20,480 nucleotides of DNA, taken from the IMG/VR virus record IMGVR_UViG_3300044859_000289, positions 1 to 20,480 of that record, one strand, 5' to 3'. The DNA comes from a virus. A program made the position numbers and the translations under genes. Under the pieces are notes generated by a model. The model saw nothing but the letters and a program-made list of their open reading frames with translations. It was not told where the DNA came from and did not search any database. The first letter of the stretch is position 1, and each line of letters opens with the position of its first letter. Below, one piece after another: positions 4,058 through 20,285 of the stretch.

Positions 4058-5086
4058 TTATTTATATTTTGATAACTGGTGAAAATGATTGTGTAACCAC
4101 GACTGGAGATTTGCTATCGAATTTCCTAGGTCGTCTTCGTGATAAATTTCCATAAATTCCTTCGATCTATAAGTCTTGTTAGGACTCGCCAACATTTCTT
4201 GTATTTCTACAATGGAATCTTCTGGTATGTTGGGATTCGTTAGATCCATTAGCTTTTCGTTTATCTTTAATTGATGCTCAAAATTTCTAATATTCATGAA
4301 TGCTTTTCCATCTCCGTCTTTTGCTTTTTGTAGAACTTCTGTTAAAGTCATTTTATTGTAGCTCGCTAATTCCGGATAAAGTTTTGTTATCGTCTTTGGT
4401 CCGATACCTTTAATTCCAGGAACATTATCTCCAGAATCTCCGGTTAAAACTTTGTAATTCAAAAAGTTTTCGCTACTAACTCCGTATTGGTCTAAGACTT
4501 TTTTGGGAGTGTAGAAGATTTTTTTCGTAGGAGAATATACAGTTATCCTTTCAGATACGAGCTGTAAATAATCTCGGTCTGAAGACATTATTGTAAAATC
4601 TGTGTCCATCTGTTGAGTGATGTAACCGATAACATCGTCTGCTTCTATTTTGTCTATCGAAATTAAATCTACAGGCAAACACTTCAAATAATCTATCAAT
4701 CTAACCAACTGATTTGTGATTGCTTCTGATTCTTGTTCCTGATTCTCAAAAGCATCCCAGTTAGTGACCCTGCGTATGCCTCTATTAGCTTTGTACTCTG
4801 GATAGATATAACGTTTATTCGTTGATGAACCCTTGCCATCGAACGCCAGAATCACTCTGGTAGGTCGAATCAAGTTGATGGCAAAACCAAGCGACCTTAG
4901 GTAACCTGTTAATCCACCAACGTGATTCAAACTCTTGTTAAAATGCTGTATAACTGTAAATGCTCTTAGGAAAGTATTCAGTGAATCGATAATTAAAATT
5001 CTATCGTTTACCTTTAGATCTTCTTTTGTCTCTTCAACTTCTGCCTTTCCAAGCGAATCAAATATCTTTTGGTAATCTTTATTCAT
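4058..5086 (-). CDS. rnh: 5' nuclease of the FEN/T4 RNase H family
   Basis: The product should remove RNA primers and 5' flaps from Okazaki fragments. From the ATG at 5084-5086 it has 342 residues. Metal-binding acidic positions of the family are visible: Asp34 in LIIDSLN, Asp83 in AFDG, Glu148, Asp150 and Asp151 in IEADDVIG, Asp170 and Asp172 in SSDRDYLQL, and Asp217 and Asp220 in TGDSGDN. A helix-hairpin-helix GIKGIGPKT follows at 224-232. The size matches T4 RNase H (about 305) and related phage FENs. The frame continues upstream to a TTG at 5134, but those 16 codons lie inside uvsX. The ATG overlaps the uvsX stop by 8 nt (ATGAATAA), a normal coupling arrangement, so it is the preferred start. 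Confidence 0.93.
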   Translation of the reverse strand: MNKDYQKIFDSLGKAEVEETKEDLKVNDRILIIDSLNTFLRAFTVIQHFNKSLNHVGGLTGYLRSLGFAINLIRPTRVILAFDGKGSSTNKRYIYPEYKANRGIRRVTNWDAFENQEQESEAITNQLVRLIDYLKCLPVDLISIDKIEADDVIGYITQQMDTDFTIMSSDRDYLQLVSERITVYSPTKKIFYTPKKVLDQYGVSSENFLNYKVLTGDSGDNVPGIKGIGPKTITKLYPELASYNKMTLTEVLQKAKDGDGKAFMNIRNFEHQLKINEKLMDLTNPNIPEDSIVEIQEMLASPNKTYRSKEFMEIYHEDDLGNSIANLQSWLHNHFHQLSKYK

Positions 5087-6155
5087 GTTCTGAACTGTCA
5101 AATATGTCTTTAATGTCTTCGTCAGCCTCTTCAACTACATCGAAATCTTTTGAACCCAATGTTTTTAGCCACTGATGAGAATACTGTTTCTTGTAATTGT
5201 CCAATGCTTTCTTATCGTCGTCAATAAATCCGTGTACTGTCATAATAACCTTGTTCAAAGCAGTAACTCCAGTAACGTGGTTCTTATCGCAAGAGATTTT
5301 TGTTCTCTTTGCAAACTCAACCTCTTTACCATTCTTGGTAGCTTTGATCTTGTTTGTACCTGCATTAGTAACGTTTCCGAAAGTGATAATAAGAGACGCG
5401 TCAAAGAACATTGTGTCTCCGCCTTTATTCTTCATCTTTGGTTGACTCATAATAGTTTCAGGTTTTGCGACCCAAACTTTATTGATAGCAACGAATGAAT
5501 TTGTGTAAGGTTGACTCTCTTTTCTTGATAACGCAATCTTCTGATTAACGAACTGTCCGAACTGTTGTGACATAGCGCCCGCATTCCACTCGTTATTGTT
5601 CTTGTTTGACTCTATTGATAGTCGGCATGGGACGGAGCCCACAGAGTCCCAAAAGAAACAGATATCGTAAGGCAAGTTTCCTGCCTTCTGCTCGTCCAAA
5701 ATATCCAAGATAAATGCTGATACGTCTTCGATACAATTCATCTTTTCTCTATCAACGAATATAAAAAAGCCTTTGTAATCGGATACTACGCCGTCTTCGT
5801 CAGCGACCTCTTCGAATTGCAATCCCATTTCTTTAGCGTGTTCCCAACTCCATTTCATCTCGGTAATAATGAAAACAGGTAGAATGCCCATTTTTTGAGC
5901 GTTAACTGCTGCTTCCAATAAAGCTGTTGTTTTACCAGTATCGGAGTGACCTCTCAATAAAGTAATATGACCCTTTGGAATACCCGGGATTTGTAATGCG
6001 TCTTGAAACGATTTTGATAAAGGAATCCACGTTTGATCTTTGAATTTTATAGACGTAGAAGATAAATTCTTTGACTTCTTAAAGTTGTCCAAGTTGAATT
6101 CTGTCTTGATAGCTTTTGATATGGAGCTATTTAACCCTTCTTTAGCCTTTGCCAT
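5079..6155 (-). CDS. uvsX: UvsX-like RecA-family recombinase
   Basis: This 358-residue protein is the predicted strand-exchange protein that forms filaments on single-stranded DNA displaced from the SSB and primes recombination-dependent replication. The Walker A is GHSDTGKTT at 69-77 and the Walker B strand is ICFFWDS at 165-171 with Asp170. The C-terminus is acidic (DEDIKDIFDSSEHE), as in T4 UvsX, which has 391 residues. The first ~45 residues are basic and Ser-rich, the expected position of the monomer-monomer interaction segment. The gene begins just after a terminator hairpin and overlaps the 5' nuclease start by 8 nt. No Shine-Dalgarno sequence precedes it. Placement next to gp32, RNase H and gp41 supports the call. 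Confidence 0.92.
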   Translation of the reverse strand: MAKAKEGLNSSISKAIKTEFNLDNFKKSKNLSSTSIKFKDQTWIPLSKSFQDALQIPGIPKGHITLLRGHSDTGKTTALLEAAVNAQKMGILPVFIITEMKWSWEHAKEMGLQFEEVADEDGVVSDYKGFFIFVDREKMNCIEDVSAFILDILDEQKAGNLPYDICFFWDSVGSVPCRLSIESNKNNNEWNAGAMSQQFGQFVNQKIALSRKESQPYTNSFVAINKVWVAKPETIMSQPKMKNKGGDTMFFDASLIITFGNVTNAGTNKIKATKNGKEVEFAKRTKISCDKNHVTGVTALNKVIMTVHGFIDDDKKALDNYKKQYSHQWLKTLGSKDFDVVEEADEDIKDIFDSSEHE

Positions 6156-7562: not shown

Positions 7563-8864
7563 TTAGAATGCATAGCTGGTTCCATGTTTGTGTTTTACCT
7601 TCATTTTGCTTGTTTCCAATATAGTTTTGATCTCCTGTAGTGTCTTTTTGCCGTCCTTTTTGCTGAAATCAAATAGAAACGAGTCGTAAGTGATCAGAAT
7701 TAGCTTGGTCTTGGCGCCTGTCGTTTTAAGATAGTTTTGAATCTCTTGTATCTTATAAATATTTTCTTTAGTCTCTAGGTTTTGCACCACGTAGTTAAAC
7801 AGCTTGTACTTGGTCATTGAATTGTCCTTCTTGATTATTCTGCCAGTTGGTAACTTGTAACCGCCTTGCTTACTGTATTGCTTCCACATCTCGTCTACGT
7901 AAGAACCCATTTGAGCGAAGAAGTCTACGTGTTTGTACTTTTTATCCACTCCACCGTAAAGCTGTTTGAATGTAATAGTTTTTGACTCTTTGTACTCCTC
8001 TTCCGTAAGCTCCTCTTTGTTGAAATAGCTTTTACCAAGATATTCGTGAAAAGACTCTTGTGGACATTCAAAATTTATAAGTTTAGCTATTAGCCTCAAG
8101 TGATATGCGTCGAAGTCAAATTCAACAAGAAAGTCATTAGAAGGTAAAAAGCAGCTTCTGAAATCGTTCTCTTTTGGAATGGCCAAGAAGTTAATGCCGT
8201 TAAACGAATTTGTTGGTCTTCCAGTTAAATTATATAAGTTGTAGCAAGAGTACATCCGCTCCCCTTTAATAGAATAGCTCTGATCGTGAATCTGGTACTT
8301 ATCTGTCAAACACTTAACGTCTACCTTTATTGGATTCTCCTCGACTGATTTGTACGCGTTAATGAAGTCCTCTTGAGTCTGTAGATCTGTTTCTAAACCG
8401 AAGTAGCCTTTAACGTAATCGTACAAACATTGGCACCTTTCGTAGTGCTTCGATATAGGTATTAATTCGTTTGTGATGGGAAGCTGCCCATAACGTGAGT
8501 AAAAATCGTGGTGTAAATTAGTATCGCAATCGAACTGGTTAAATTCGTTTGTTTGATCCAGATTAACGAAATGTAGGTCTATAGCGTTAGGTAAATCTAA
8601 GAAGTAAGAGTGAAACTTCTTGTCTAATAGGTATACTTTTTTGTGGAGCTTTAAAAACTCTTGAACCATTTTAAAATCCAAGTAAAAGCTTTCAGAGTGT
8701 TTGAAAGGGAATATGTAACCCTTTTCACCATCGTTGTAATACAGTAAACTTGGGTACGTCAACTTCGGGTGAACTCTATCGTTGCCCGCTATTAGTTGTA
8801 CGAAACACTCGTCTTTAATATCAAGGTTGCCGAATTGCGACAAACTTTCTACAATGAAATACAT
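7563..8864 (-). CDS. compact family A DNA polymerase
   Basis: This 433-residue protein has the ordered motifs of the Pol I polymerase domain: TGR at 214-216; motif A FDFDAYHLR with catalytic Asp250; motif B with Lys295, Phe299, Tyr303 and Gly304 (KTITFKQLYGG); an N-x3-Q pair at Asn357/Gln361; and motif C TYDSF with catalytic Asp394. Departures are notable: the motif A glutamate (E710 of E. coli Pol I) is His255, and HDE of motif C is YDS. The first ~120 residues look like a reduced 3'-5' exonuclease fold (GYIFPFKH and the following helix-strand pattern) without the DxE acidic pair, so proofreading is probably absent here. T4 uses a family B polymerase, so this may be the main replicase, with proofreading supplied elsewhere, or an auxiliary enzyme. 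A plain 54-nt gap separates it from the 208-residue structural gene. Confidence 0.85.
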   Translation of the reverse strand: MYFIVESLSQFGNLDIKDECFVQLIAGNDRVHPKLTYPSLLYYNDGEKGYIFPFKHSESFYLDFKMVQEFLKLHKKVYLLDKKFHSYFLDLPNAIDLHFVNLDQTNEFNQFDCDTNLHHDFYSRYGQLPITNELIPISKHYERCQCLYDYVKGYFGLETDLQTQEDFINAYKSVEENPIKVDVKCLTDKYQIHDQSYSIKGERMYSCYNLYNLTGRPTNSFNGINFLAIPKENDFRSCFLPSNDFLVEFDFDAYHLRLIAKLINFECPQESFHEYLGKSYFNKEELTEEEYKESKTITFKQLYGGVDKKYKHVDFFAQMGSYVDEMWKQYSKQGGYKLPTGRIIKKDNSMTKYKLFNYVVQNLETKENIYKIQEIQNYLKTTGAKTKLILITYDSFLFDFSKKDGKKTLQEIKTILETSKMKVKHKHGTSYAF

Positions 8865-8918: not shown

Positions 8919-9545
8919 CTATGTAGTGGGTCTTGAGAACTTTGCGTATTCACCACCGATAAACTCTATAAGACCCAAGAAGTTTTTGCCGGCATCTTCC
9001 GTATTCTTTTTGTTTACTTCTATAATGCCTAATCGTATATCGTACTGAGAATATCTTTTTGTGTTTAAATCTCCTGTAAGTTTCCAAAACATCTGTGTCA
9101 CTAAATAAAATGACACATCGTATCTAACCGTTCCATTCACAAACTCGTTGTACTCTTCGGGAGAAATTTCGATAACAAAACCTTTGCTGTTAATCTTCTT
9201 GATAAAATATCTAATAAAATAGCCTCTAGTATAATCGTCAACGGTGGGTTTTGGATAATAAGATATAGGTTCTAATGCTTGGGTTTTAGTAACGTTAGTT
9301 TGTCTTAAGAATTGGTTCTTTACTGAAGATGGTAAATTAGAAGCGTTTAGATAATCTGAGTTACCGTAATCTTCAATTGTTTTTAATTCTTCGTTTGGTC
9401 CTACTATGGGATTAGGTCCACTATAGAATTTATTATCGTATGTTTGATAGTAGTCGCCAGAATAAGGAGCGCCATCTAATGAAAGACGATTTCCGGTTGT
9501 CTTCTGATCTGTTTTGACTCTAAATGATGGATAGTATTTTATCAT
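8919..9545 (-). CDS. hypothetical phage structural protein downstream of the hub
   Basis: This 208-residue protein is linked to the hub gene by a 4-nt ATGA overlap and is the last gene of the morphogenesis block. The N-terminus is rich in Tyr, Gly and Asp (YYPSFRVKTDQKT, then PYSGDYYQTYD), the kind of sequence seen in small structural proteins of marine T4-like phages. The C-terminal half has alternating beta-like stretches (RGYFIRYFIKK, YDVSFYLVTQMFWKLTG). It has no signal peptide, membrane segment or enzyme motif. Its position suggests a baseplate or hub-associated component, but I recognise no named family. Confidence 0.75.
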   Translation of the reverse strand: MIKYYPSFRVKTDQKTTGNRLSLDGAPYSGDYYQTYDNKFYSGPNPIVGPNEELKTIEDYGNSDYLNASNLPSSVKNQFLRQTNVTKTQALEPISYYPKPTVDDYTRGYFIRYFIKKINSKGFVIEISPEEYNEFVNGTVRYDVSFYLVTQMFWKLTGDLNTKRYSQYDIRLGIIEVNKKNTEDAGKNFLGLIEFIGGEYAKFSRPTT

Positions 9546-12500
9546 ATTAATTTACCTGTTGCGTCTAAGTAAGTAGATAATTTGCCCTCTTTTAAAGCGA
9601 TGTGTAAGTGAGTATCCCATGTATAATCTGGTCTTGGAGGCTGGCCTACATAACCTAATAAGTCTCCTTTTTTAACCGCACCTTTAGCTACAACTGAATC
9701 TAAGTGAGTATAAAACACCTGCGTTTTACCCCATAATGTGAATCTATATCCCCAAATATATGGAACTGTTTCATAGAAGTTTATATTTTCTACCTTGCCA
9801 TCGAATAGAGCATATACTGGCGTGAAGGCCGGCACAAATAAATCCCACGCATTTGAGCTTTGCCATTGACCTTGTTGTGAAGCGTCTCTTGCTCCATGTG
9901 CTGGTAGAGATATTGAATTTCCAAGAGGTTTGCTAGCTCCAAAAAGAAACGAAGACGTAGAAGCTGCAGAGTTTTGCGCAATGCCGGTGCCTCTTGGAGT
10001 AGATCCTCCAGATCCGCCCTTTGGATCTATTGCATTATAAAGAGAACTGCCTTCGGGATTAAAAGCAGCTTGCTTTCCCTTTTGAAATTCAGTATTTAAA
10101 CGTCTTCCTGCAAAATCAGCTCTTGTTTTTAAATATGTCATATTGGCTTTGATGGCTGTAGTCCACTCATTGTTCTCTATTGTGTGAACGTTTCCAGTAA
10201 CCATAAATCCAACTTTTTGTGAGCCTTTTGCAATGTTTGATTTTTCATCGGTCGATGTAGTTCTAACGTTGTATGTGTATGGAAGAAATTTTTCTGATAT
10301 TGTAAAGCCCTGCATCATATTGAATCCTGAGATGCCATCCAATGTAAAGTTGATGGATACCGGAATCATGGCTGCTGCTCTAGTCGGCGCGTCTAATTTG
10401 CTTACCGTAAGTTTTTCAATATAGTAGTTTGTTGCATGGCCAATATTTTCGGTAGACGGATTGTACGTACCGTAGAAATCTGTTACATTTTTATTGAATT
10501 TTAAAGCAGAAGATACTATAGCGTCAATATTTGCTTGATCTACTTTGGTTTTTCCATCTTTTTGTTTAGTTATATCAGAATTCTCTGTTCTGTTTGGAAT
10601 ATATCTATCGCTATAGTATTTGTTGATAAAACCGTAAGGAGTTCCATCTGTAGAATTAGCTGATTTTTTTTGTACGTCTGAGTTAGCACTGATTGCTAAA
10701 ACATTTGCCATTTTTGAAGATATGTCAGTTCTTAAATCCAAACTTCTGGCTATTGAATTTCTACCATATATTGGAATGTCGTAGTCTGAATTCTTGGGAA
10801 CGATATCTTCGTCTGATAACCCAGGCACCAATTGATCGTCTATTATTTGAAGACAATTAGAAGCATCGTCATAGGAAAATCTAAATATATTAAAATTACC
10901 CAAAGTTTTATTCATATCAGATAGTATCTGTTCTACGAAAGCTTTTAAAAATACGCTATTGGTTTGATCTTGAGAAAAGAACTGCTTAATTATGTCAAAA
11001 AGATAATCTATATTAACCAACACATTCATGATCTTACCTCTATAAGCATCGATTTCTTCTGCGCCTTTAAATCTAGGAATGTCTCCAGAAATAGTGTCTT
11101 TTTCAGGACTAAATAAAGCAGTTAATGCGTTGTTATTCTCTTTATTGCCTTTTATGCTATTTCCCTCTAAAACATCTGTATAGAATAGCGTTTTATAGTC
11201 TTCAAGAGTTCCTTGAAAAGGAATCATAAAAGTCATACCGTTAGTGGTCATGTGACATGGATGACTCAAACAAAAATTAGTTTCAGGATTATAATCCATG
11301 TACATTAGAGGCGTTTTTTTTCCTTCTGTTTTTTCGTCGTACAAATTACAACAGTGATTCAATATGAACATTACTAGACCTAACTGAATGTATACAGGGT
11401 GTGCTAATCGACTACCTTCGTTAATGTCTTGATTCACGTCGTAAGGAAGCACGTAAGATTTTAATAACTTTTTATAGTCTACTTCTACCTCTTTTGGTAT
11501 ATCTCCTGTAATTTTATTTGAGAGTACAGCAGAGTTAAATCCATACTTTATATTTTTTTCGAATGGATCGCTAGCGCTAAGACTATTGTTTATAATTTTA
11601 TCTATATATGTTTTAAAGATTCCATCAGAAAATACAGGAACCGCAAATTCTTTTGCCGTTAAATCTACTTCTTTAACTTTTCTTTCTAAATCAATTTTTT
11701 TAGAGCTCGCATTAATTGCTTCTATTAAAGAATAAATTTGTATGCTTCTTAAAGTTGCTTCTAAAGAGGATTGATACTGTACTGCTGGTTTGGTTTGTTC
11801 GGTGCTAGTATTAGAAGCGGGATTCGTATTTTCTGGCCCAGCTTTAGCCGTATCCTGGCTGGTTAAACTATCTCTATATTTTTCATATTCTCTTGTTGAA
11901 GCTTTTGCATTATAAATTTTTATGCTGTCTATTAAGCTTGTATCATTTAATCTTATAGAAACTTCAACATCAACAGTGGTTTCATCGCGATTTGACGTTT
12001 CTATTAAACTTCCGTCTGCTCGTCTTGTAGTCTTATTTTTCCAAGTTGTATAAGGCAGTTTGTAATAATATTTTAATTGTAATCCATAGTTTCCAGGTCC
12101 TGTCATTGATATGCCGATAGCTTCACCTTTGTCTTTATTTTTGCTAAGGTATCCTGGGTTATATACATCAGTACTTGTTTTAAATTCATTAGTTAAGAAC
12201 GTATTGGCCTGTAAACCGTCAGGAAATTTTAAATTTGCCAAAGAAATTGAATATCTAGAAAATGTTCCAACTAAATCTGTATCTTTTTTTTCTCCTGTAA
12301 AATAAGACACAATATCGTTTAAAATAGACTGCTGAGAGACTGAGTATGCTATTTCTTTGTTTGTATTTTTATTTATTGTAGGAATTTCTACGTCTATTGC
12401 AAAATTATAAGGAGTAAAATCTGAGTAATTTTTAGTTGTTAGGAAATTTGAAGGGGAAAAATATTGGGTTTGAATAGAATATTTATTCGGTGCTGTAGCA

Positions 12501-13816
12501 ATGGCCAGCTTCACAGTTTCTACAGCTAATTTATTTAGCAAAGCTTTGCTTTTAAGATCGCTAGAAAAACCTACAGATTCTATAATTTTATTTAAATCTT
12601 CGTTACCATTTAAAATCACTCCAAATTTTTTAATATATAGTTTGTTATCGATACTATTATTATAATAATAATCGTATTCATCTTTTTTATTATAATCTTT
12701 GCCTTTTCTATCTCTAGCGACTAGACTACTAGGAGCTGATGCATATCTGCTAAAAAATCTTTGAGTTACATTAGATAAATCGGTTTCTGCTGCTATGTTT
12801 TCGTCTTTTTTGTTATCACCTATTAAAAAATCTGAATAACTATCAAAAGCTTTAAGTTTTTCCTCTCTTTCTTTCTCTTTTGCTTTTTTTACTTTCGCGG
12901 CTTCTGCTGCTTGTTCTGCTTTTACTTTTTCATCTTGTTGTTTCTGTATGGTTCTATAAAGGCTATTTAATTGTTCTATTGTGGTTTTTAATGGCTGAGC
13001 TAAAGTTGCAGGTTGATTTATCTTTAGACTATCTGCTAAAGATCCAAGTCCAACTAGCTTTAAAACGCAATCGTATCCGCCTTCTTGATTGTACGAGAAA
13101 GAGAAATTACTAACCATACCCAACATACCATCATAGTTGCCTTTGGACTCTCTTCTTTTTAAACCTAAATCAAGAGCTATCTGTTCTTTTGTTAAGTTAT
13201 CTTTGAAAGGATCTAAACTAAATAATTCAGTAGCGCTTAAATTTGAAGATTCTGACTCGTAGTAGAAAGTGTTTCCCCATTCCAAAAACATTGTGTATCC
13301 CAACTTAAAATACAAAGCATCTATTACGTCCAACTGACTTTTGTCCCAAACTTTAAATTCTATTGTTGCGCCTCTAATAGATCCCAATCGACCTTGAGTT
13401 TCTATAACAACTCTGCTTAGTCCTGGCATTGGACGATAGCCAAAATCTCTAACCTCTTGATCTCCTAATAAAGAGTAGGTTTCTTTAAAACCTTTTCTTA
13501 GTTCGTAGTTGGTTTTACCTCCTTGATTGTTGTACTTAGAAACTCCACCGTATAGCACAAAGTTTTTCGATAAATCTTCTGGTTTGGTTAAGGTTAAGCC
13601 TGTTAATTCAGAAAAATATTTTGTATCTGATGGTTCGGTTATATTGATAGAAGACACTAATCTAACCCAACCAGTTTTGTTTCCAAGATACTGTAGGTTT
13701 GCATTGTCTCTATTGGCTTGAGTTCCTTTTTTGCTTCTAGTTTGTAATTGTTCTAAAAGCCAAACAGGAATGTGTGTACCAATAACGTTAGATATTTTAT
13801 TATCGTTTTGTGCCAT
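9542..13816 (-). CDS. baseplate hub protein with C-terminal M23-like peptidase domain
   Basis: The protein has 1424 residues. The N-terminal region (about 50-270) has LEWGNTFYY at 178-186 and NFSFSYNQEGGYD at 237-249, resembling gp27-like hub proteins of marine T4-like phages. A charged coiled-coil-like helix spans about 280-325. The last ~125 residues look like a zinc metallopeptidase of the LytM/M23 type: NAWDLFVPAFTPVYALFDG with Asp1325, FYTHL with His1371, a GDLLGYVG turn, and THLHIAL with His1403 and His1405. In T4 the cell-wall enzyme of the hub is the gp5 lysozyme; here a peptidase would cut peptide crosslinks during DNA entry. The first ligand position of the usual HxxxD (four before Asp1325) is Ser, although His1307 lies upstream. 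It starts 1 nt after the gp53-like stop. Confidence 0.82.
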   Translation of the reverse strand: MAQNDNKISNVIGTHIPVWLLEQLQTRSKKGTQANRDNANLQYLGNKTGWVRLVSSINITEPSDTKYFSELTGLTLTKPEDLSKNFVLYGGVSKYNNQGGKTNYELRKGFKETYSLLGDQEVRDFGYRPMPGLSRVVIETQGRLGSIRGATIEFKVWDKSQLDVIDALYFKLGYTMFLEWGNTFYYESESSNLSATELFSLDPFKDNLTKEQIALDLGLKRRESKGNYDGMLGMVSNFSFSYNQEGGYDCVLKLVGLGSLADSLKINQPATLAQPLKTTIEQLNSLYRTIQKQQDEKVKAEQAAEAAKVKKAKEKEREEKLKAFDSYSDFLIGDNKKDENIAAETDLSNVTQRFFSRYASAPSSLVARDRKGKDYNKKDEYDYYYNNSIDNKLYIKKFGVILNGNEDLNKIIESVGFSSDLKSKALLNKLAVETVKLAIATAPNKYSIQTQYFSPSNFLTTKNYSDFTPYNFAIDVEIPTINKNTNKEIAYSVSQQSILNDIVSYFTGEKKDTDLVGTFSRYSISLANLKFPDGLQANTFLTNEFKTSTDVYNPGYLSKNKDKGEAIGISMTGPGNYGLQLKYYYKLPYTTWKNKTTRRADGSLIETSNRDETTVDVEVSIRLNDTSLIDSIKIYNAKASTREYEKYRDSLTSQDTAKAGPENTNPASNTSTEQTKPAVQYQSSLEATLRSIQIYSLIEAINASSKKIDLERKVKEVDLTAKEFAVPVFSDGIFKTYIDKIINNSLSASDPFEKNIKYGFNSAVLSNKITGDIPKEVEVDYKKLLKSYVLPYDVNQDINEGSRLAHPVYIQLGLVMFILNHCCNLYDEKTEGKKTPLMYMDYNPETNFCLSHPCHMTTNGMTFMIPFQGTLEDYKTLFYTDVLEGNSIKGNKENNNALTALFSPEKDTISGDIPRFKGAEEIDAYRGKIMNVLVNIDYLFDIIKQFFSQDQTNSVFLKAFVEQILSDMNKTLGNFNIFRFSYDDASNCLQIIDDQLVPGLSDEDIVPKNSDYDIPIYGRNSIARSLDLRTDISSKMANVLAISANSDVQKKSANSTDGTPYGFINKYYSDRYIPNRTENSDITKQKDGKTKVDQANIDAIVSSALKFNKNVTDFYGTYNPSTENIGHATNYYIEKLTVSKLDAPTRAAAMIPVSINFTLDGISGFNMMQGFTISEKFLPYTYNVRTTSTDEKSNIAKGSQKVGFMVTGNVHTIENNEWTTAIKANMTYLKTRADFAGRRLNTEFQKGKQAAFNPEGSSLYNAIDPKGGSGGSTPRGTGIAQNSAASTSSFLFGASKPLGNSISLPAHGARDASQQGQWQSSNAWDLFVPAFTPVYALFDGKVENINFYETVPYIWGYRFTLWGKTQVFYTHLDSVVAKGAVKKGDLLGYVGQPPRPDYTWDTHLHIALKEGKLSTYLDATGKLI

Positions 13817-14184: not shown

Positions 14185-16034
14185 TATCGGTTATTTAACG
14201 TTTCGTTGATGTTGAAAAGTAATTCCTCTCTAGTTGGAGCTGGGCTATTACTTTCTTGATTGATACCCGCGAAAATAGCTAAAGCGTTTTGAATTTCGGG
14301 TATTGCGGCTTGACGTTTTCTTTGCTCTTCTGTTTTACGGGTATCATTATCTTTCTTTTGTAAAGTATCAACTATAAAGTTTCCGTTTGCCAATAAAGCA
14401 GGTGTATCTGTAAGATCTTGAGCTCTTCTTGGTAAAATATCCATAATTGGTTTGAAGGTAATGCTTACATTTAAGTAATGCGGTAATTCGGCTACTTTTC
14501 TGCCGCTGTATGCATCATTTTCTTGATTTATTTCCCAAGAAGCATTATCTTCTATTGTAATATTGATGCTTTCTAAAACTCCAGGCGTTCTATATAAATA
14601 ATCACCAATGGTTAGTTTAATGATTGGCGCTCTCATTGCTGAAGTATTTGGACTATAATCCGGATAAACTTGACTGGTTAAATAGTTTAACTTCTCGTAC
14701 ATTGGTCTCAATTCAGGTCTTGATTGAGCAAATATTTTGAATGAGAAAGAAACCGTACGATCGAACCCTTGATAAGTTCTAAAGTTTTCACCTCTACCCA
14801 AATATCTAAAAGAGTTGTATTCTCCAGAGTGATTATCGGATATGCCAGATAAGAATGCTCTAAATACTAAAGCTGTTGTCTTTGTAGGATTATCGTTGGA
14901 TATAGCTTCGAAAGCAAATTTAATTATGTCTTTAGCGTAGTCACCTGAAAATGGGGTGTCTCCTTCGTTAACAGTAAATGGGGTTAAAGCATTTAATCTA
15001 TCAATACCGACATCTGTACCTGGAACATAGAAAATGTAAGTTTTATTTAATCTACTAATTCTAGGATCTCCAGGGTTTCCGGCGTTCATTGCGTTTTGAA
15101 TACTTTGTTCAGAAAAATTCCACTTTCTTGCTTGTTGCACTGGACTTGCTACTTGGCTTCTGAAATCTTGTATTTTTGAAACGTCTTGAAACAGCGCATT
15201 AACTCCGTTAGGTTTTTGATTCTTTATTTGATCGTAGGTAAGAGTAAGTATATTTGAAACTAATGTTGTATCTGTAGCTCTTCTTATTATTGTTTTTCCA
15301 ACACCATAAGTAGATCCAGGGCCTTGTATGTAATCGAATAGGATACTTTTATTCAAAGACATGCCCAAAGTATTGTACAAATTAGGATCTGTAAATTTTA
15401 CCTCTTTGTTGCTGTTAAACATTTTAGTTTGATAGAAAGCGTATAGTCTGTTTCTATCTTTTCCGTTTACTGTAGTGAATTGCTTTTGAATGGTAGCTGC
15501 GTAAAAGTTTTGAAACTGAAAGCCATTGATACCAATTCTATCTGGATGATAGCCTGTACCCGAACTTAATACAGCGCTCAACATGTTCTTTCCTGATGGA
15601 TCGTATATCCAAGTATTTGGGATAGTTCCAAAAGAAGTAGACTGGTAACCTTGCGTGGTTTCCATTCTAGGATTTGTTTTTTGTAAATTTACTTGCTTGT
15701 TTAAAAAAGCAGGTCCTTTAGATCCGTCTTTAAGAAACTTTGATATTCTTAATTGATCTATCTCACCGGTTAAAGTTCTTCTGGCCGTTCCTGTTCCTGG
15801 GTCTAACTCTGCTCCGCCTCTTATTGGATAATCTAAACTGTTTCTGTTTCTTTGATAGAATTGTAAAATAGAATTTGTAACCGGTCCCGCATCTTGCATC
15901 GGAAATTTAACGTAAGGTAAACCGGAGTTTCCCCCTTGAGGTTGATCCATTCCGTATTTCAACGTGGTAAAGTCTGTCTTCTGATTTAAGAAAACTGAAT
16001 CTGATAAGTTGGAAGAGTTATAGTTTAGTGGCAT
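14184..16034 (-). CDS. baseplate / tail-tube-initiator-like structural protein
   Basis: The protein has 616 residues. Residues about 410-537 hold a pattern typical of tube-fold baseplate proteins: VSFSFKIFAQSRPELRPMYE, KLNYLTSQVYPDY, IIKLTIGDYLYRTPGVL, then WEIN and ELPHYLNVSITFKPI. This pattern occurs in proteins that cap the baseplate and start the tube, such as T4 gp48 and gp54, and gene order supports this because T4 genes 48 and 54 follow the tape measure gene 29. The first ~400 residues are polar, rich in Asn, Gln and Thr, and unrecognised, perhaps a sheath-side or wedge-contact domain. The last 80 residues are charged. It starts with a TAATG overlap on the tape measure stop. Tail-tube-like domain likely; exact role uncertain. 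Confidence 0.75.
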   Translation of the reverse strand: MPLNYNSSNLSDSVFLNQKTDFTTLKYGMDQPQGGNSGLPYVKFPMQDAGPVTNSILQFYQRNRNSLDYPIRGGAELDPGTGTARRTLTGEIDQLRISKFLKDGSKGPAFLNKQVNLQKTNPRMETTQGYQSTSFGTIPNTWIYDPSGKNMLSAVLSSGTGYHPDRIGINGFQFQNFYAATIQKQFTTVNGKDRNRLYAFYQTKMFNSNKEVKFTDPNLYNTLGMSLNKSILFDYIQGPGSTYGVGKTIIRRATDTTLVSNILTLTYDQIKNQKPNGVNALFQDVSKIQDFRSQVASPVQQARKWNFSEQSIQNAMNAGNPGDPRISRLNKTYIFYVPGTDVGIDRLNALTPFTVNEGDTPFSGDYAKDIIKFAFEAISNDNPTKTTALVFRAFLSGISDNHSGEYNSFRYLGRGENFRTYQGFDRTVSFSFKIFAQSRPELRPMYEKLNYLTSQVYPDYSPNTSAMRAPIIKLTIGDYLYRTPGVLESINITIEDNASWEINQENDAYSGRKVAELPHYLNVSITFKPIMDILPRRAQDLTDTPALLANGNFIVDTLQKKDNDTRKTEEQRKRQAAIPEIQNALAIFAGINQESNSPAPTREELLFNINETLNNR

Positions 16035-18640
16035 TAAGAGTTGTATCTAGTTGTGTCAAAATTTGTGTAAGAATTGTTTTGAAAACTATTTAATACTAAT
16101 TTACCGGTTGGAACTCCGTCTAACATAACGTTTCCTGTAACGAATCTCACTTGCGCGTTAGACGCATCAGGTTTTTGAGTTACCAATTTTGTCAATAACT
16201 CAACTGTCTTTGTTGAATTATCTGCGGTCATTTTAATTAACTGTAAACTGCTAGCTCCCAAATAGGTTTCTCCTGAGTCAACTTGGGCAATTCCAGAAGT
16301 TTTAACCACTCCACCTTTGGCTAGTTTTCCATAGCTTTTACCTCTTAGGTTTTCAGCGAAGCCTTTGATATTATCTCCGTAATCTTCTGCTATTTCGTCC
16401 TTTCCGAATAAAAATAAATTTGCTATCTTAGAAGCTCCATTAACGAAAGTTCCTATGCCTTCTAAAACTGTAGCAAAGAAATCTTTTAATCCGTTTACAA
16501 ACCCTTGAATTTTACTTGGATTCGACATAAACTCAATAGCTTTGTCTATGAATTCAGTAACTCCTGAATTCGCTATAAGACTTGTGAATCCTTGTTTGAT
16601 TTTTTCTATCAATCCCGCTAATCTTTCGTTAGCTGCTCCTGAAGCCAGAGCTTGATATTGTTGCTTTTCTTGTTCGGTAGTAATGTCCTTCATCGTAGCG
16701 AACCTCTTCTTCGCTAATTCGTACTGTTGCTGCGCTGACTGACCATCTTTAGCTCCTATCTTAGATAGGAACTCTTGCTTCTTTAACATGTCGGCCATCG
16801 TGTCCCTAGTCATACCAAAGCTAGATGCTAGTGACTCTGCTGCGATTCTATTTAAACCTAAGAATTGTTCTGAATTTCCAACCTGTTTTGTTATCTCTTC
16901 AGCTGCTGTAACTAAATCGTTGTTTAAGAAAGCTTCTCTTGCTTTATTTAAGTTGATATCTTTTCCGGTCAACAACTGAGCTTCCATTTCTTTACTAATA
17001 GAAGACTCGTAATCCAAGAAAGAATCTGCCAATGCGTCTACCTGTTTTAATTCTAGACCCATTGCTTTTGTTTGCAATACGGCCTTTGTAATTTTTTCTG
17101 GATACTTTGCGAATGTTAATCCTAAATAGCCTCCCAAATTACTAACCTCTTTTAATACCGCTTTGTAGTCTTGCGTAGCTAACCCAGCTTTTTTAAGATT
17201 CTGTACTTGTTGTAGTACATTTCCAACAATGTTCGCTGATTCTTTTCCAGTAATTACAGAAGTTTGAGCGATGCTGGCTTGTATGTCTTCTTCTAATCCT
17301 AAAACGTCTTTTAATCTTATGTTAGTGCTTAGTATCTCGTTAGAAAAAATTGCAGTAGTGCCCAATTGTTTGCTTAAAGCAACTTGAGCTTCGTATAGTT
17401 TTTTAGGATTTACAAAAACATCTTTAGTACTGCTAGCTATGTTACTAAAGTTGTTTGCTAGTTTTTGAGATTCGTCTGCGCTTAAACCAAGTTCTCGACC
17501 CATTTTTACGAACATGGAATTGGCATTCATCGCATAATCCATGAAAGTAGACATTATATCGACTACTCCACCAAGCAATCCACCAACTAATGGTATCTTT
17601 TCTAAGAACCCGCTAATTGGTTTTGTAAGATTTTGAATTGGTCCTTCTGCTAATTCTCCGCCCAAAGCTTTCATTCCACCAACCATTCCGTCTCTAAACA
17701 TTTTTATTGTTCCTTGTAAAGCGGAGTTTAATGCTTTAGCCGCTCCTAAGAATAAACCGGCTTTGAATAGAGGATCATTTTTCCAAGAGTCTGCGAAAGA
17801 AGTTTTGAATGCTTTAAAACCGGCTTTGAATACGCTTCCGCCGGCTTTTGGAACTTCAATTAAAGGGATAGGTTCTAAATTTTGTTGAGCTCTTGTTACG
17901 TTCTCAATTGCTATGAGTTTATTTTTAGCTGTAATTTCTTCTACTAATTGAAGGTTTCTGGCTTGTTGTACCATAGCCTCGTAAACCTCGCTACCCATTC
18001 CTAATTTCTTAGAAAAGTTTTCAAATAGTTTACCTGTAACACCTATAGAGCTTTGTATTTCCTTTTCTTTAGCTAATTCTTTTTCGAGCTCTTTTACAGT
18101 AAGACCAATTATCTCGCTGCTTTTTGATCTAGCTACATATTGAGCTTGTAAAGGAGTTAAGTTTTTAGTTTCTTTTTCTAAAAGCCTTTCTGCGATAGTT
18201 AATTGTCTTTTTGCAGAAGATATGGCTCTTGCGTTTCCGCTTGCTAAAGCTTCTGATAAGTTGTCTTCTTTTTGTTTTTTCTCATCCAGTAATTTAACAT
18301 AATCTTGAGCGCCTTTTAATTGTACTGCGCTTATTTTTTGAAGATCTGCTTGCGTTTCATTTAATTTGGCGGTGTTTACAAACTGCTTGGATATCTGATC
18401 GTTTATCTGTGATTGTATTCTCTTAACGTCTATGGCATTAGTTCTAAAGCCCTCAATAGAAGATCTAACCTTATCGTATCCGGTTTGAAGCTTTTTTAGT
18501 TCGTTTACCTGATCTCTGATAATGTCTCCAAAATCAGCGCCATCTCTTACTAGCGCTTTAAAAACACCTTGTAATTTTTTTGCTTCTTCTGCCCCTGTAG
18601 ATGATTTTGGGGTACTGCTATTTTGATTTTCGTTGGACAT
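16034..18640 (-). CDS. tail tape measure protein
   Basis: This long, mostly helical protein (868 residues) is predicted to set tail length and pass into the tube. Residues 20-260 are rich in Lys, Glu, Gln and Ala, typical of coiled coil. Residues about 290-375 are hydrophobic and Gly-rich, with LFLGAAKALNSALQG and IPLVGGLLGGVVDIM, as in the membrane-active middle of many tape measures. Residues 380-650 are again helical, and the C-terminus turns polar (NSYTNFDTTRYNS). At about 0.15 nm per residue, a helical ruler of this length would give a tail of roughly 130 nm, longer than the 590-residue gp29 of T4 would predict; this is inference. It follows the gp26-like pair of ORFs, as a tape measure follows its chaperones. 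No peptidase or lysozyme motif was seen. Confidence 0.9.
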   Translation of the reverse strand: MSNENQNSSTPKSSTGAEEAKKLQGVFKALVRDGADFGDIIRDQVNELKKLQTGYDKVRSSIEGFRTNAIDVKRIQSQINDQISKQFVNTAKLNETQADLQKISAVQLKGAQDYVKLLDEKKQKEDNLSEALASGNARAISSAKRQLTIAERLLEKETKNLTPLQAQYVARSKSSEIIGLTVKELEKELAKEKEIQSSIGVTGKLFENFSKKLGMGSEVYEAMVQQARNLQLVEEITAKNKLIAIENVTRAQQNLEPIPLIEVPKAGGSVFKAGFKAFKTSFADSWKNDPLFKAGLFLGAAKALNSALQGTIKMFRDGMVGGMKALGGELAEGPIQNLTKPISGFLEKIPLVGGLLGGVVDIMSTFMDYAMNANSMFVKMGRELGLSADESQKLANNFSNIASSTKDVFVNPKKLYEAQVALSKQLGTTAIFSNEILSTNIRLKDVLGLEEDIQASIAQTSVITGKESANIVGNVLQQVQNLKKAGLATQDYKAVLKEVSNLGGYLGLTFAKYPEKITKAVLQTKAMGLELKQVDALADSFLDYESSISKEMEAQLLTGKDINLNKAREAFLNNDLVTAAEEITKQVGNSEQFLGLNRIAAESLASSFGMTRDTMADMLKKQEFLSKIGAKDGQSAQQQYELAKKRFATMKDITTEQEKQQYQALASGAANERLAGLIEKIKQGFTSLIANSGVTEFIDKAIEFMSNPSKIQGFVNGLKDFFATVLEGIGTFVNGASKIANLFLFGKDEIAEDYGDNIKGFAENLRGKSYGKLAKGGVVKTSGIAQVDSGETYLGASSLQLIKMTADNSTKTVELLTKLVTQKPDASNAQVRFVTGNVMLDGVPTGKLVLNSFQNNSYTNFDTTRYNS

Positions 18641-18656: not shown

Positions 18657-18920
18657 TTAAGCCTTTGGTTTTGCCTTGCTTGTTACGTAAGAAGGTTTTG
18701 ACTTAAGAGATTGCTTAACGGCGTCAGGCATTTGAACCTTACTTTTGTCGCTTTGCTCGGTAAGAACTTTGTCGTTCTCGTTCTGAGCCTCTTGCAATCT
18801 GTCTAGGTGTTCCTTTATCTTTTTTATATTGAATTTCCTCTTTGGGATATCCATGTTCCAGACCTCAGTATAATTAAAACCTCCGCCCCCATGATAAACG
18901 AGGTCGAAGACTTCAGTCAT
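18657..18920 (-). CDS. small ORF upstream of the tape measure; likely T-like extension of the gp26-family chaperone
   Basis: As an independent gene it gives 87 residues beginning MTEVFDLVYHGGGGFNYTEV, with a Pro-Lys-Arg segment (DIPKRKF) and then a charged helix and a Lys/Ser/Pro-rich tail. The same frame is open without a stop upstream of the ATG, through GAEYRGVF, back to 18965 inside the gp26-like gene, where it lies in the +1 frame. The order small globular gene, short overlapping ORF, tape measure is the layout of tail assembly chaperone genes, whose second part is normally made by frameshifting (lambda G/GT). The region before the ATG also has AGAGGTG 5 nt upstream, a good Shine-Dalgarno match in a genome where the other starts lack one, so direct initiation is possible too. 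Its role is inferred from position. Confidence 0.75.
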   Translation of the reverse strand: MTEVFDLVYHGGGGFNYTEVWNMDIPKRKFNIKKIKEHLDRLQEAQNENDKVLTEQSDKSKVQMPDAVKQSLKSKPSYVTSKAKPKA

Positions 18921-18930
18921 AAAGACACCT

Positions 18931-18965
18931 CTATATTCCGCTCCCGGGAAAAAAGAACTCGGCTG
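18931..18965 (-). other. candidate +1 programmed ribosomal frameshift site
   Basis: Frame 0 of the gp26-like gene and the +1 frame of the 87-residue ORF overlap only here, between a +1-frame TGA at 18966-18968 and the frame-0 TAG at 18931-18933. The coding strand holds GAG TTC TTT TTT CCC GGG AGC: slippage of Phe-tRNA on TTT-C, or Pro-tRNA on CCC-G, gives the same product, FFFP followed by GAEYRGVFMTEV. The fusion would have 347 residues. This is a reading of the sequence, not a demonstrated event. Confidence 0.5.
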
Positions 18966-19701
18966 TCATTGGCAGCTCGTCGATGACCTCCTCTCCATCT
19001 TTAGTCGAAAAAGTGATCTTTGTGTCGATATCTGGAATTACGCTCTCTATGTATTTTCTCAAAGGAAGAGAATCTTGGGATAATAAAGCTCCGCTATCGA
19101 TAAAGTCTCTAACTGTTTTTGTAGAATAATCTCCGTTAATAGAAGTGATCTGATGTTTTAACTTTGTAGTCAATAAACCTGGTGCAGCTTCTCCTAAATT
19201 CTTTTTCATGCCTTTCATCTCTTCGTCGATTTTTCTATCGTCTGCAATTGTTAAGGCTTTGAAAGTAACAGTGTTTTTGGTGAAAGGGAGTTCGAAACTA
19301 AATTCGTTCTTTTCGTTGAATAGAGTGGTATCAATACTCTTATACTTAACAGACTGTAAATCGCCTTTAACGACTTCTGATTCCATCGTATTTGGATTGA
19401 AGTAGTTAAAAGAGTAGTCTTTACCGTAAGCCAATATTCTAGCTGCGATAAGAATAGCGTTCCTGTCGCCCAGGATCAGATCCTCGTAGTTTATTGGAGT
19501 TTTAATGATAGACTTAAGCATTCTTTCAATAGCTAAGCCTTGACGTAACAGATTCGCATTGGTGAGAATGTCCTCTTCTCTAGCGGTCATGTATTTGATT
19601 TCGATTTGCCCAGAAGCTAATGGGGAATCTTTTGGGTATAACAAACCCTTTGATGGAAGATCTACCATTTCGGTAGGTACTGTAAACTTTGGTTCTGACA
19701 T
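18931..19701 (-). CDS. gp26: T4 gp26-family baseplate hub / tail assembly protein
   Basis: The protein has 256 residues. The N-terminal part has VDLPSKGLLYPKDSPLASGQ and IEIKYMTAREEDILTN, the signature I associate with the T4 gp26 baseplate family (gp26 of T4: 208 residues). The remaining sequence (DLILGDRNAILIAARILAYG, ALTIADDRKIDEEM) fits the same family. In T4, genes 26 and 51 sit in the hub region and act in hub assembly. In this phage the gene is immediately upstream of a small frameshift-linked ORF and the tape measure, which suggests a tail assembly chaperone role; this functional reading is inference. Frame 0 ends in PGSGI. Because a terminator precedes the gene, its own promoter should lie in the 45 nt between the hairpin and the ATG. 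Confidence 0.87.
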   Translation of the reverse strand: MSEPKFTVPTEMVDLPSKGLLYPKDSPLASGQIEIKYMTAREEDILTNANLLRQGLAIERMLKSIIKTPINYEDLILGDRNAILIAARILAYGKDYSFNYFNPNTMESEVVKGDLQSVKYKSIDTTLFNEKNEFSFELPFTKNTVTFKALTIADDRKIDEEMKGMKKNLGEAAPGLLTTKLKHQITSINGDYSTKTVRDFIDSGALLSQDSLPLRKYIESVIPDIDTKITFSTKDGEEVIDELPMTAEFFFPGSGI

Positions 19702-19799: not shown

Positions 19800-20285
19800 T
19801 TAGAAGTTCAAGATAGCGTAGTCCATACCCAAAGTCAAACTGATTTCGGTAGGATCTGAAGTAGACCAGTCGTAAGTTCCGAAGTTTGTTTCTTTGATGA
19901 AAGCGCCCTTGCAAATCCACTCTGATACAATATCTCCAACTGGACCTAAGATCGATAAGTTAATGTCTTTCTTATAAAAGTCAGAATAACCGTTTCTACC
20001 TGTTACAGACTCGTGATGTAAACGTACCCATTCCATTACAGCCTCTTGGCCTGATGGACTGATTGGATTGTATAAAGACAATGTGATGTCTCTCCACTCA
20101 GCTTTTCCTTTAATCTTACGATAAACATTGATGTGATCTAATTTGATTTCATTTAAAGTAAGACCTGGTGCGTCCGCTTTTTTAATCATATATGAAGGAA
20201 TACCGTCGATGTACATTACAAATCTATTCGATACTGTAGGTTCGAAAGCGGTAAACATTATTTCATTTGGGTCTAATACTGGCAT
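19800..20285 (-). CDS. gp19: tail tube protein (T4 gp19 family)
   Basis: This 161-residue protein matches the length of T4 gp19 (163). It begins with a short polar arm and TVSNRFVMYIDGIPSYMIKK, then ADAPGLTLNEI, the conserved opening of the family in which the second strand contacts the neighbouring subunit. It continues with AEWRDITLSLYNPISPSGQE, VMEWVRLHH and FGTYDWSTSDPTEISLTLG, the beta-sandwich pattern of tube proteins. It forms the inner tube through which DNA passes. A terminator directly follows, as expected for a very highly expressed structural gene that must be made in excess of the downstream baseplate proteins. Confidence 0.95.
   Translation of the reverse strand: MPVLDPNEIMFTAFEPTVSNRFVMYIDGIPSYMIKKADAPGLTLNEIKLDHINVYRKIKGKAEWRDITLSLYNPISPSGQEAVMEWVRLHHESVTGRNGYSDFYKKDINLSILGPVGDIVSEWICKGAFIKETNFGTYDWSTSDPTEISLTLGMDYAILNF

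Follow-up and report, generated by a model that had tools for sequence, protein, structure and literature searches.

Predicted +1 frameshifting joins a gp26-family tail gene to a small downstream domain ahead of a tape measure-like gene

The window, that is, the whole 20,480-nucleotide stretch analysed here (positions 1 to 20,480 of IMG/VR record IMGVR_UViG_3300044859_000289), very probably carries a programmed +1 frameshift site, TTT TTT CCC GGG, at the 3' end of a gp26-family gene, through which a minority 347-residue G-T fusion would be made beside the 256-residue G protein. Comparison of related loci strongly supports a predicted +1 signal that is real and strongly conserved, and from the same patterns we infer the slippage itself, its efficiency, the slipping codon and the chaperone role of the products. 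By analogy, the pair is best read as a lambda-type G/GT tail-assembly chaperone produced by +1 slippage, with its function presumed from this likeness.

Locus and proteins

The features of the locus are as follows.

18931..19701, minus strand: G, tail-assembly protein of the gp26 family (baseplate hub), 256 aa, read in the zero frame (phrog_150, PF12322, AlphaFold model)
18943..18957, minus strand: predicted slip site TTC TTT TTT CCC GGG (TTT CCC kept by every one of 50 non-redundant relatives; CCC and GGG rank with the rarest codons)
18951-18948 and 18948-18945, minus strand: candidate shifts TTT_C and CCC_G, respectively, within the slip site
18931..18933, minus strand: TAG, the zero-frame stop of G, located 18 nt past the first T of the slip codon TTT
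18657..18947, minus strand: T, +1-frame domain, 96 aa after TTT_C, beginning PGAEYRGVFMTEVFDLVYHGGGGFNYTEVWNM (stop 18657-18659; +1 ORF kept in 244/245 loci)
18921..18947, minus strand: slip-to-ATG segment, translated only upon a frame shift (synonymous excess in the +1 frame only)
18918..18920, minus strand: ATG opening the 87-codon ORF, which may serve as a second start (50/50 close relatives; absent in most sister-clade loci)
18926..18932, minus strand: AGAGGTG, Shine-Dalgarno-like, not conserved
16034..18640, minus strand: tape measure-like protein, 868 aa, assigned by position (start 16 nt beyond the T stop)
19800..20285, minus strand: tail tube protein (gp19-type), upstream of G (phrog_4542, E 4.1e-24)

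The 3' end of G reads TTC TTT TTT CCC GGG AGC GGA ATA TAG on the minus strand, with the run TTCTTTTTTCCCGGG at 18957-18943, and TTTCCCGGG is found only once in the window. Ahead of the G stop codon, 32 nt of the +1 frame are open (35 nt including the stop), and this frame continues to 18657. Translation of both candidate shifts, TTT_C and CCC_G, gave an identical 347-aa fusion, as an earlier note on this DNA had claimed, and the sequence, coordinates, 35-nt overlap and open +1 frame that it gave were likewise confirmed. Per 1000 codons of the window there are 2.2 CCC and 2.4 GGG, which places both with its seven rarest sense codons. T comes after G and before the tape measure gene, the position occupied by the lambda-type pair in other phages; the 868-aa tape measure-like protein had no Pfam match, and its homologue is present in relatives on other contigs.

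By its family matches, G is a member of the T4_baseplate family: it matched phrog_150 (E 4.7e-12) and PF12322 (28.0 bits against a cut-off of 24.5), which bears out the gp26-like identity first proposed for it. Its AlphaFold model has a pLDDT of 91.9, and Foldseek searches of BFVD with this fold returned the SP-15 hub protein (E 7e-18) and gp26 of Aeromonas phage 25 (E 3e-4), while nothing credible was found in the PDB. The window-family G gave no direct profile match to single T4 gp26 or gp51 sequences; its link to T4 runs through the PHROG and Pfam families and through the cyanophage profile (window-family G versus cyanophage G, profile-profile E 1.9e-6). T is a small predicted helical domain with the motif [ED]YR...FDL.YHG.GGF..VYNMP.W.R.F, for which PDB matches were generic helical ones only. 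The window T did not match phrog_634 (baseplate hub assembly catalyst), and two T sequences of the Mel clade matched it weakly (E 0.012 and 0.031); the window-family T aligned with cyanophage T at a profile-profile E of 9.3e-7 over 44 columns.

Elsewhere in the window, a 1424-aa tail protein (9542-13816, minus strand) ends in an M23 peptidase domain at its C-terminus (PF01551, 29.9 bits) and is probably a cell-wall-cutting baseplate component. Replication genes adjoin the tail genes (442-2292, 4058-5134, 5079-6155 and 7563-8864, minus strand), their products being a ribonucleotide reductase (weak B12-type features), a 5'-3' exonuclease, a RecA/UvsX-like ATPase and a family A DNA polymerase-like protein, the last of which is short and under the Pfam cut-off.

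Conservation of the slip site and of the segment ahead of the ATG

Close relatives were collected as 80 IMG/VR loci with 67-100% G identity, 50 of them non-redundant. One of the six search peptides (PMTAEFFF) spans the Phe run, and because it was used as a degenerate back-translation the query cannot force TTT or CCC. Both TTYTTYTTTCCC and the open +1 frame were kept in all 80 loci. Within the non-redundant set, the third Phe codon was TTT in 50/50 and the Pro codon CCC in 50/50, so that the T/C run showed no drift, compared with CCC at 14 of 410 Pro codons (~3%) elsewhere in the G gene; the Gly codon after CCC was GGG in 39/41 cases versus 11/631 elsewhere in the gene. At conserved columns elsewhere the commonest codon accounted for a mean fraction of 0.63, against invariance at the slip codons. 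The G stop lies 6-21 nt past the first base of the slip codon in relatives, and in 6 of the 50 a stop (TAG or TAA) follows CCC directly, which means that the zero frame ends on the slip site there. Two loci (L047 and L050) have lost the zero-frame TAG (TATCG), extending G by a few bases with the +1 frame and T intact.

Across the whole family, 244 of 245 related loci had a +1 ORF overlapping G by at least 12 nt and extending at least 60 codons beyond the G stop or off the locus end, compared with 2/245 for the -1 frame, so that chance does not account for the overlap; the one locus that departs from this, L249, carries its T-like ORF in the -1 frame. These counts, together with the invariant slip codons, support the candidate +1 frameshift of the earlier note, and a stop in the +1 frame before the ATG was never seen in relatives. 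A lambda-type -1 frameshift with an X_XXY_YYZ heptamer was considered and rejected, T being in the +1 frame and a comparable -1 ORF occurring in 2/245 loci.

Searches with immuto (Flavobacterium) and Mel-JY01 (Microcystis) added 160 more distant loci, 107 of them non-redundant, whose site reads TTT TTT TGG CCT or TTT CTT TGG CCT, with TTT in 104/104 and CCT in 106/106. The same layout was present in RM378 (TTT TTT TGG), SP-15 (TTT TTT CAC) and Streptococcus phage GXN1 (TTC TTT CGT), at G identities of 25-26%; the T-like segment of RM378 had no recognisable similarity to T, and the SP-15 query returned SP-15 itself as its sole locus. The UUU_CGU of GXN1 is also the established motif of influenza PA-X (PMC3498833). 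Judged from these sites, the common denominator is a P-site UUU followed by U or C, plus a next codon that is probably slow.

The nine codons between the slip and the ATG carry a coding signature of their own. In the +1 frame, this segment gave 2621 synonymous against 1099 non-synonymous single-difference codon pairs, compared with 543:2722 and 340:2690 in the other two frames and with 16024:2474 in the +1 frame of the T core after the ATG; these numbers count pairs among related sequences rather than independent events, yet the frames differ clearly. [ED]YR is nearly invariant in the segment, and the first predicted helix of T (model residues 4-20) begins ahead of the ATG. These observations indicate translation of the pre-ATG segment into protein and, as no in-frame start lies upstream, point towards frameshifting.

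Proposed mechanism and rival explanations

In the mechanism that we propose, the ribosome would pause at a slow A-site codon, either CCC or GGG (both rare) or, in some relatives, a stop, with codon rarity taken as a presumed proxy for slow decoding. The P-site tRNA would then slip one base forward, tRNA-Phe from UUU to UUC or tRNA-Pro from CCC to CCG, both of which allow re-pairing in the P site, while the majority of ribosomes would terminate at TAG and yield G. For the window clade the slip may be at UUU_C, with CCC occupying the A site, or at CCC_N, where the A site would hold GGG or a stop: the invariance of TTT favours a UUU_C slip, and the rare GGG or stop after CCC favours a CCC_N slip like those of SPP1 and PSA. 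G and GT may behave like lambda gpG and gpGT, with G binding the tape measure protein encoded by the adjoining gene and the T domain of GT recruiting tail tube subunits.

Neither RNA structure nor an upstream Shine-Dalgarno sequence was found in the window clade as a stimulator besides the rare codons and stops. RNAalifold gave no consensus pair downstream of the site in this clade, and individual downstream stretches folded somewhat better than shuffles (mean z -1.74). An internal Shine-Dalgarno sequence upstream of the slip was rejected as a general element, occurring in 0/50 members of the window clade and 36/107 of the distant clade. In a subset of loci (L034, L042, L052, L055 and their relatives), a small hairpin of 6 bp lies a few bases past CCC and takes compensatory forms (GCGGAC/GTCCGC, GCCGAC/GTCGGC and GCCGAT/ATCGGC); it is absent in the window and the others.

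In the main rival explanation, ribosomes that have terminated on G reinitiate at the ATG (18920), aided by AGAGGTG, so that T would be a protein of its own and the run incidental. The ATG is present in 50/50 close relatives, and TAATG overlaps in the T4-type phages Vibrio K469 and Dickeya Coodle may serve reinitiation there. However, the run is invariant while neighbouring positions vary, the pre-ATG segment is under +1 coding constraint, and AGAGGTG is private to a few members, drifting among relatives to GATCGATC, GACACACA, GGTCCGCA and others, the opposite of a drifting run beside a retained AGAGGTG. Moreover, 65 of the 107 distant (sister-clade) relatives have no ATG, GTG or TTG within the first 20 T codons, and three (L190, L218 and L228) have no start codon anywhere in T, so reinitiation cannot make the T core in these loci. 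We consider this explanation, which the earlier note gave as its alternative, improbable. In sister clades T often has no start codon at all; in the window clade the ATG, at T residue 10, may act as an additional independent start that could coexist with frameshifting.

RNA polymerase slippage on the T run, with the loss of one U placing G and T in frame in the mRNA, would be in keeping with the T6 to T9 runs of many members. Against this, the window clade usually has T6 only, two members have TTCTTCTTTCCC, and the runs are of just three in the immuto-type TTTCTTTGG and in GXN1 TTCTTTCGT; the codon after the run is constrained as well. Several sites thus lack any run longer than three (TTT CTT TGG has no long homopolymer), which makes transcriptional slippage very unlikely. 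One continuous gene that only looks broken through a sequencing or assembly error is a natural suspicion at error-prone homopolymer runs, but it is refuted by the counts: the break recurs in 244 loci from many metagenomes, and the isolates immuto, Mel-JY01, RM378, SP-15 and GXN1 share it with differing sequences, leaving this reading a negligible chance.

Known systems and the T4 superfamily

Like the window pair, the widely conserved lambda G/GT pair consists of two overlapping ORFs just ahead of the tape measure gene, and its longer product likewise gains a small C-terminal domain; the shift is -1 in lambda and +1 here, and the proteins here belong to the T4 gp26/gp51 families, so that the two systems are likened by layout. 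A match in direction is the tail chaperone pair of the HF1-group haloviruses and HSTV-2, also +1, with a UUU_C-type site near the zero-frame stop, the proposed site of the HF1 group being TTT-CGC in a perfectly conserved short region (PMC7230728; PMC5009743). These are archaeal viruses in which the frameshift is likewise just predicted, and the likeness is one of site and frame. SPP1 gp17.1* (17.1 site CCC_UAA, PMC6316719) and the Listeria phages PSA, A118 and A500 (CCC_UGA sites, PMC5009743) slip, as may occur here, on a rare CCC Pro codon (CCC_UAA, CCC_UGA, CCC_UCC), and members of the window clade with CCC_TAG, CCC_TAA or CCC_TCC resemble these sites; in those phages the shift lengthens a major tail tube or capsid protein, whereas here the longer product would be a chaperone.

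To our knowledge, T4-related phages have been thought to be without the G/GT trick, and a search of the open-access literature, which is weak evidence, found no report of such a frameshift in T4-type phages. The T4 hub assembly chaperones gp26 and gp51 are encoded by two separate genes with no frameshift, whereas the window would obtain its G-T fusion by a shift. The window G shares the gp26 family (phrog_150, PF12322), and the C-terminus of T4 gp51 has T-type sequence linked to the window through cyanophage T. T4 gp26 corresponds to G alone, and gp51 (L085:4480-5229) is covered by PF12322 over residues 1-201 and by phrog_634 over residues 147-246; on these family matches, gp51 looks like an in-frame G-T fusion, and T4 seems to have replaced frameshifting by two genes.

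In cyanophages, gp26 and a short gp51 (Sf-FS3, S-SM2) are homologous to the G and T halves, with T directly after G, but T is in the -1 frame at T_TTT_TTC, in contrast to the +1 frame of the window. Among the cyanophage-type loci (L253, L255-L334), all 53 distinct sequences ended G with this heptamer and had T in the -1 frame, and the codons of the heptamer were TTT in 38/38 and TTC in 38/38 of a non-redundant set; with an ATG nearby, T may arise there by -1 slippage or by independent initiation. S-SM2, Aeh1, phiAS5 and EniLVp02 also carry T_TTT_TTC with a -1 T, pf16 has a T7 run at this place, and PA5oct, IC12 and Atu_ph07 likewise have the -1 arrangement. The earlier note had called +1 slippage in a T4 gp26-family gene unusual, which stands with the refinement that other T4-type phages have the homologous pair in the -1 frame. 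An unannotated -1 segment after gp26 of Aeh1 (L343:2215-2384) matched phrog_634 (E 2e-14), and an unannotated or mis-annotated one in phiAS5 (L339) did so as well (E 2e-15); this locates the T coding sequence of Aeh1, a phage reported without gp51 (PMC3037559).

Resting on family matches and profile comparisons, our reading of the T4 superfamily, held with moderate confidence, is that its ancestor was a phage with frameshift-made G/GT and that the direction has since flipped, giving +1 slippage at UUU_Y/CCC_N (the window lineage, SP-15 and relatives), -1 slippage at U_UUU_UUC (cyanophages, Aeh1 and others), reinitiation (Ackermannviridae-type) and, in T4, duplication (gp26 as G, gp51 as in-frame GT). 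This suggests that T4-type phages do have a G/GT system, with two opposite shift directions and gp51/gp26 as its duplicated form, and gp51 thereby gains a testable role. It also offers a possible explanation for cyanophage gp51 being only ~20% of the T4 length (PMC3037559). The loci point to an annotation that many genomes lack, and they supply UUU_Y +1 sites in hundreds of naturally varying forms. Vibrio K469 (L342), Dickeya Coodle (L344) and Cygsa01 (L338) have a -1 T with no canonical heptamer and a TAATG overlap, which suggests reinitiation in place of frameshifting in these lineages.
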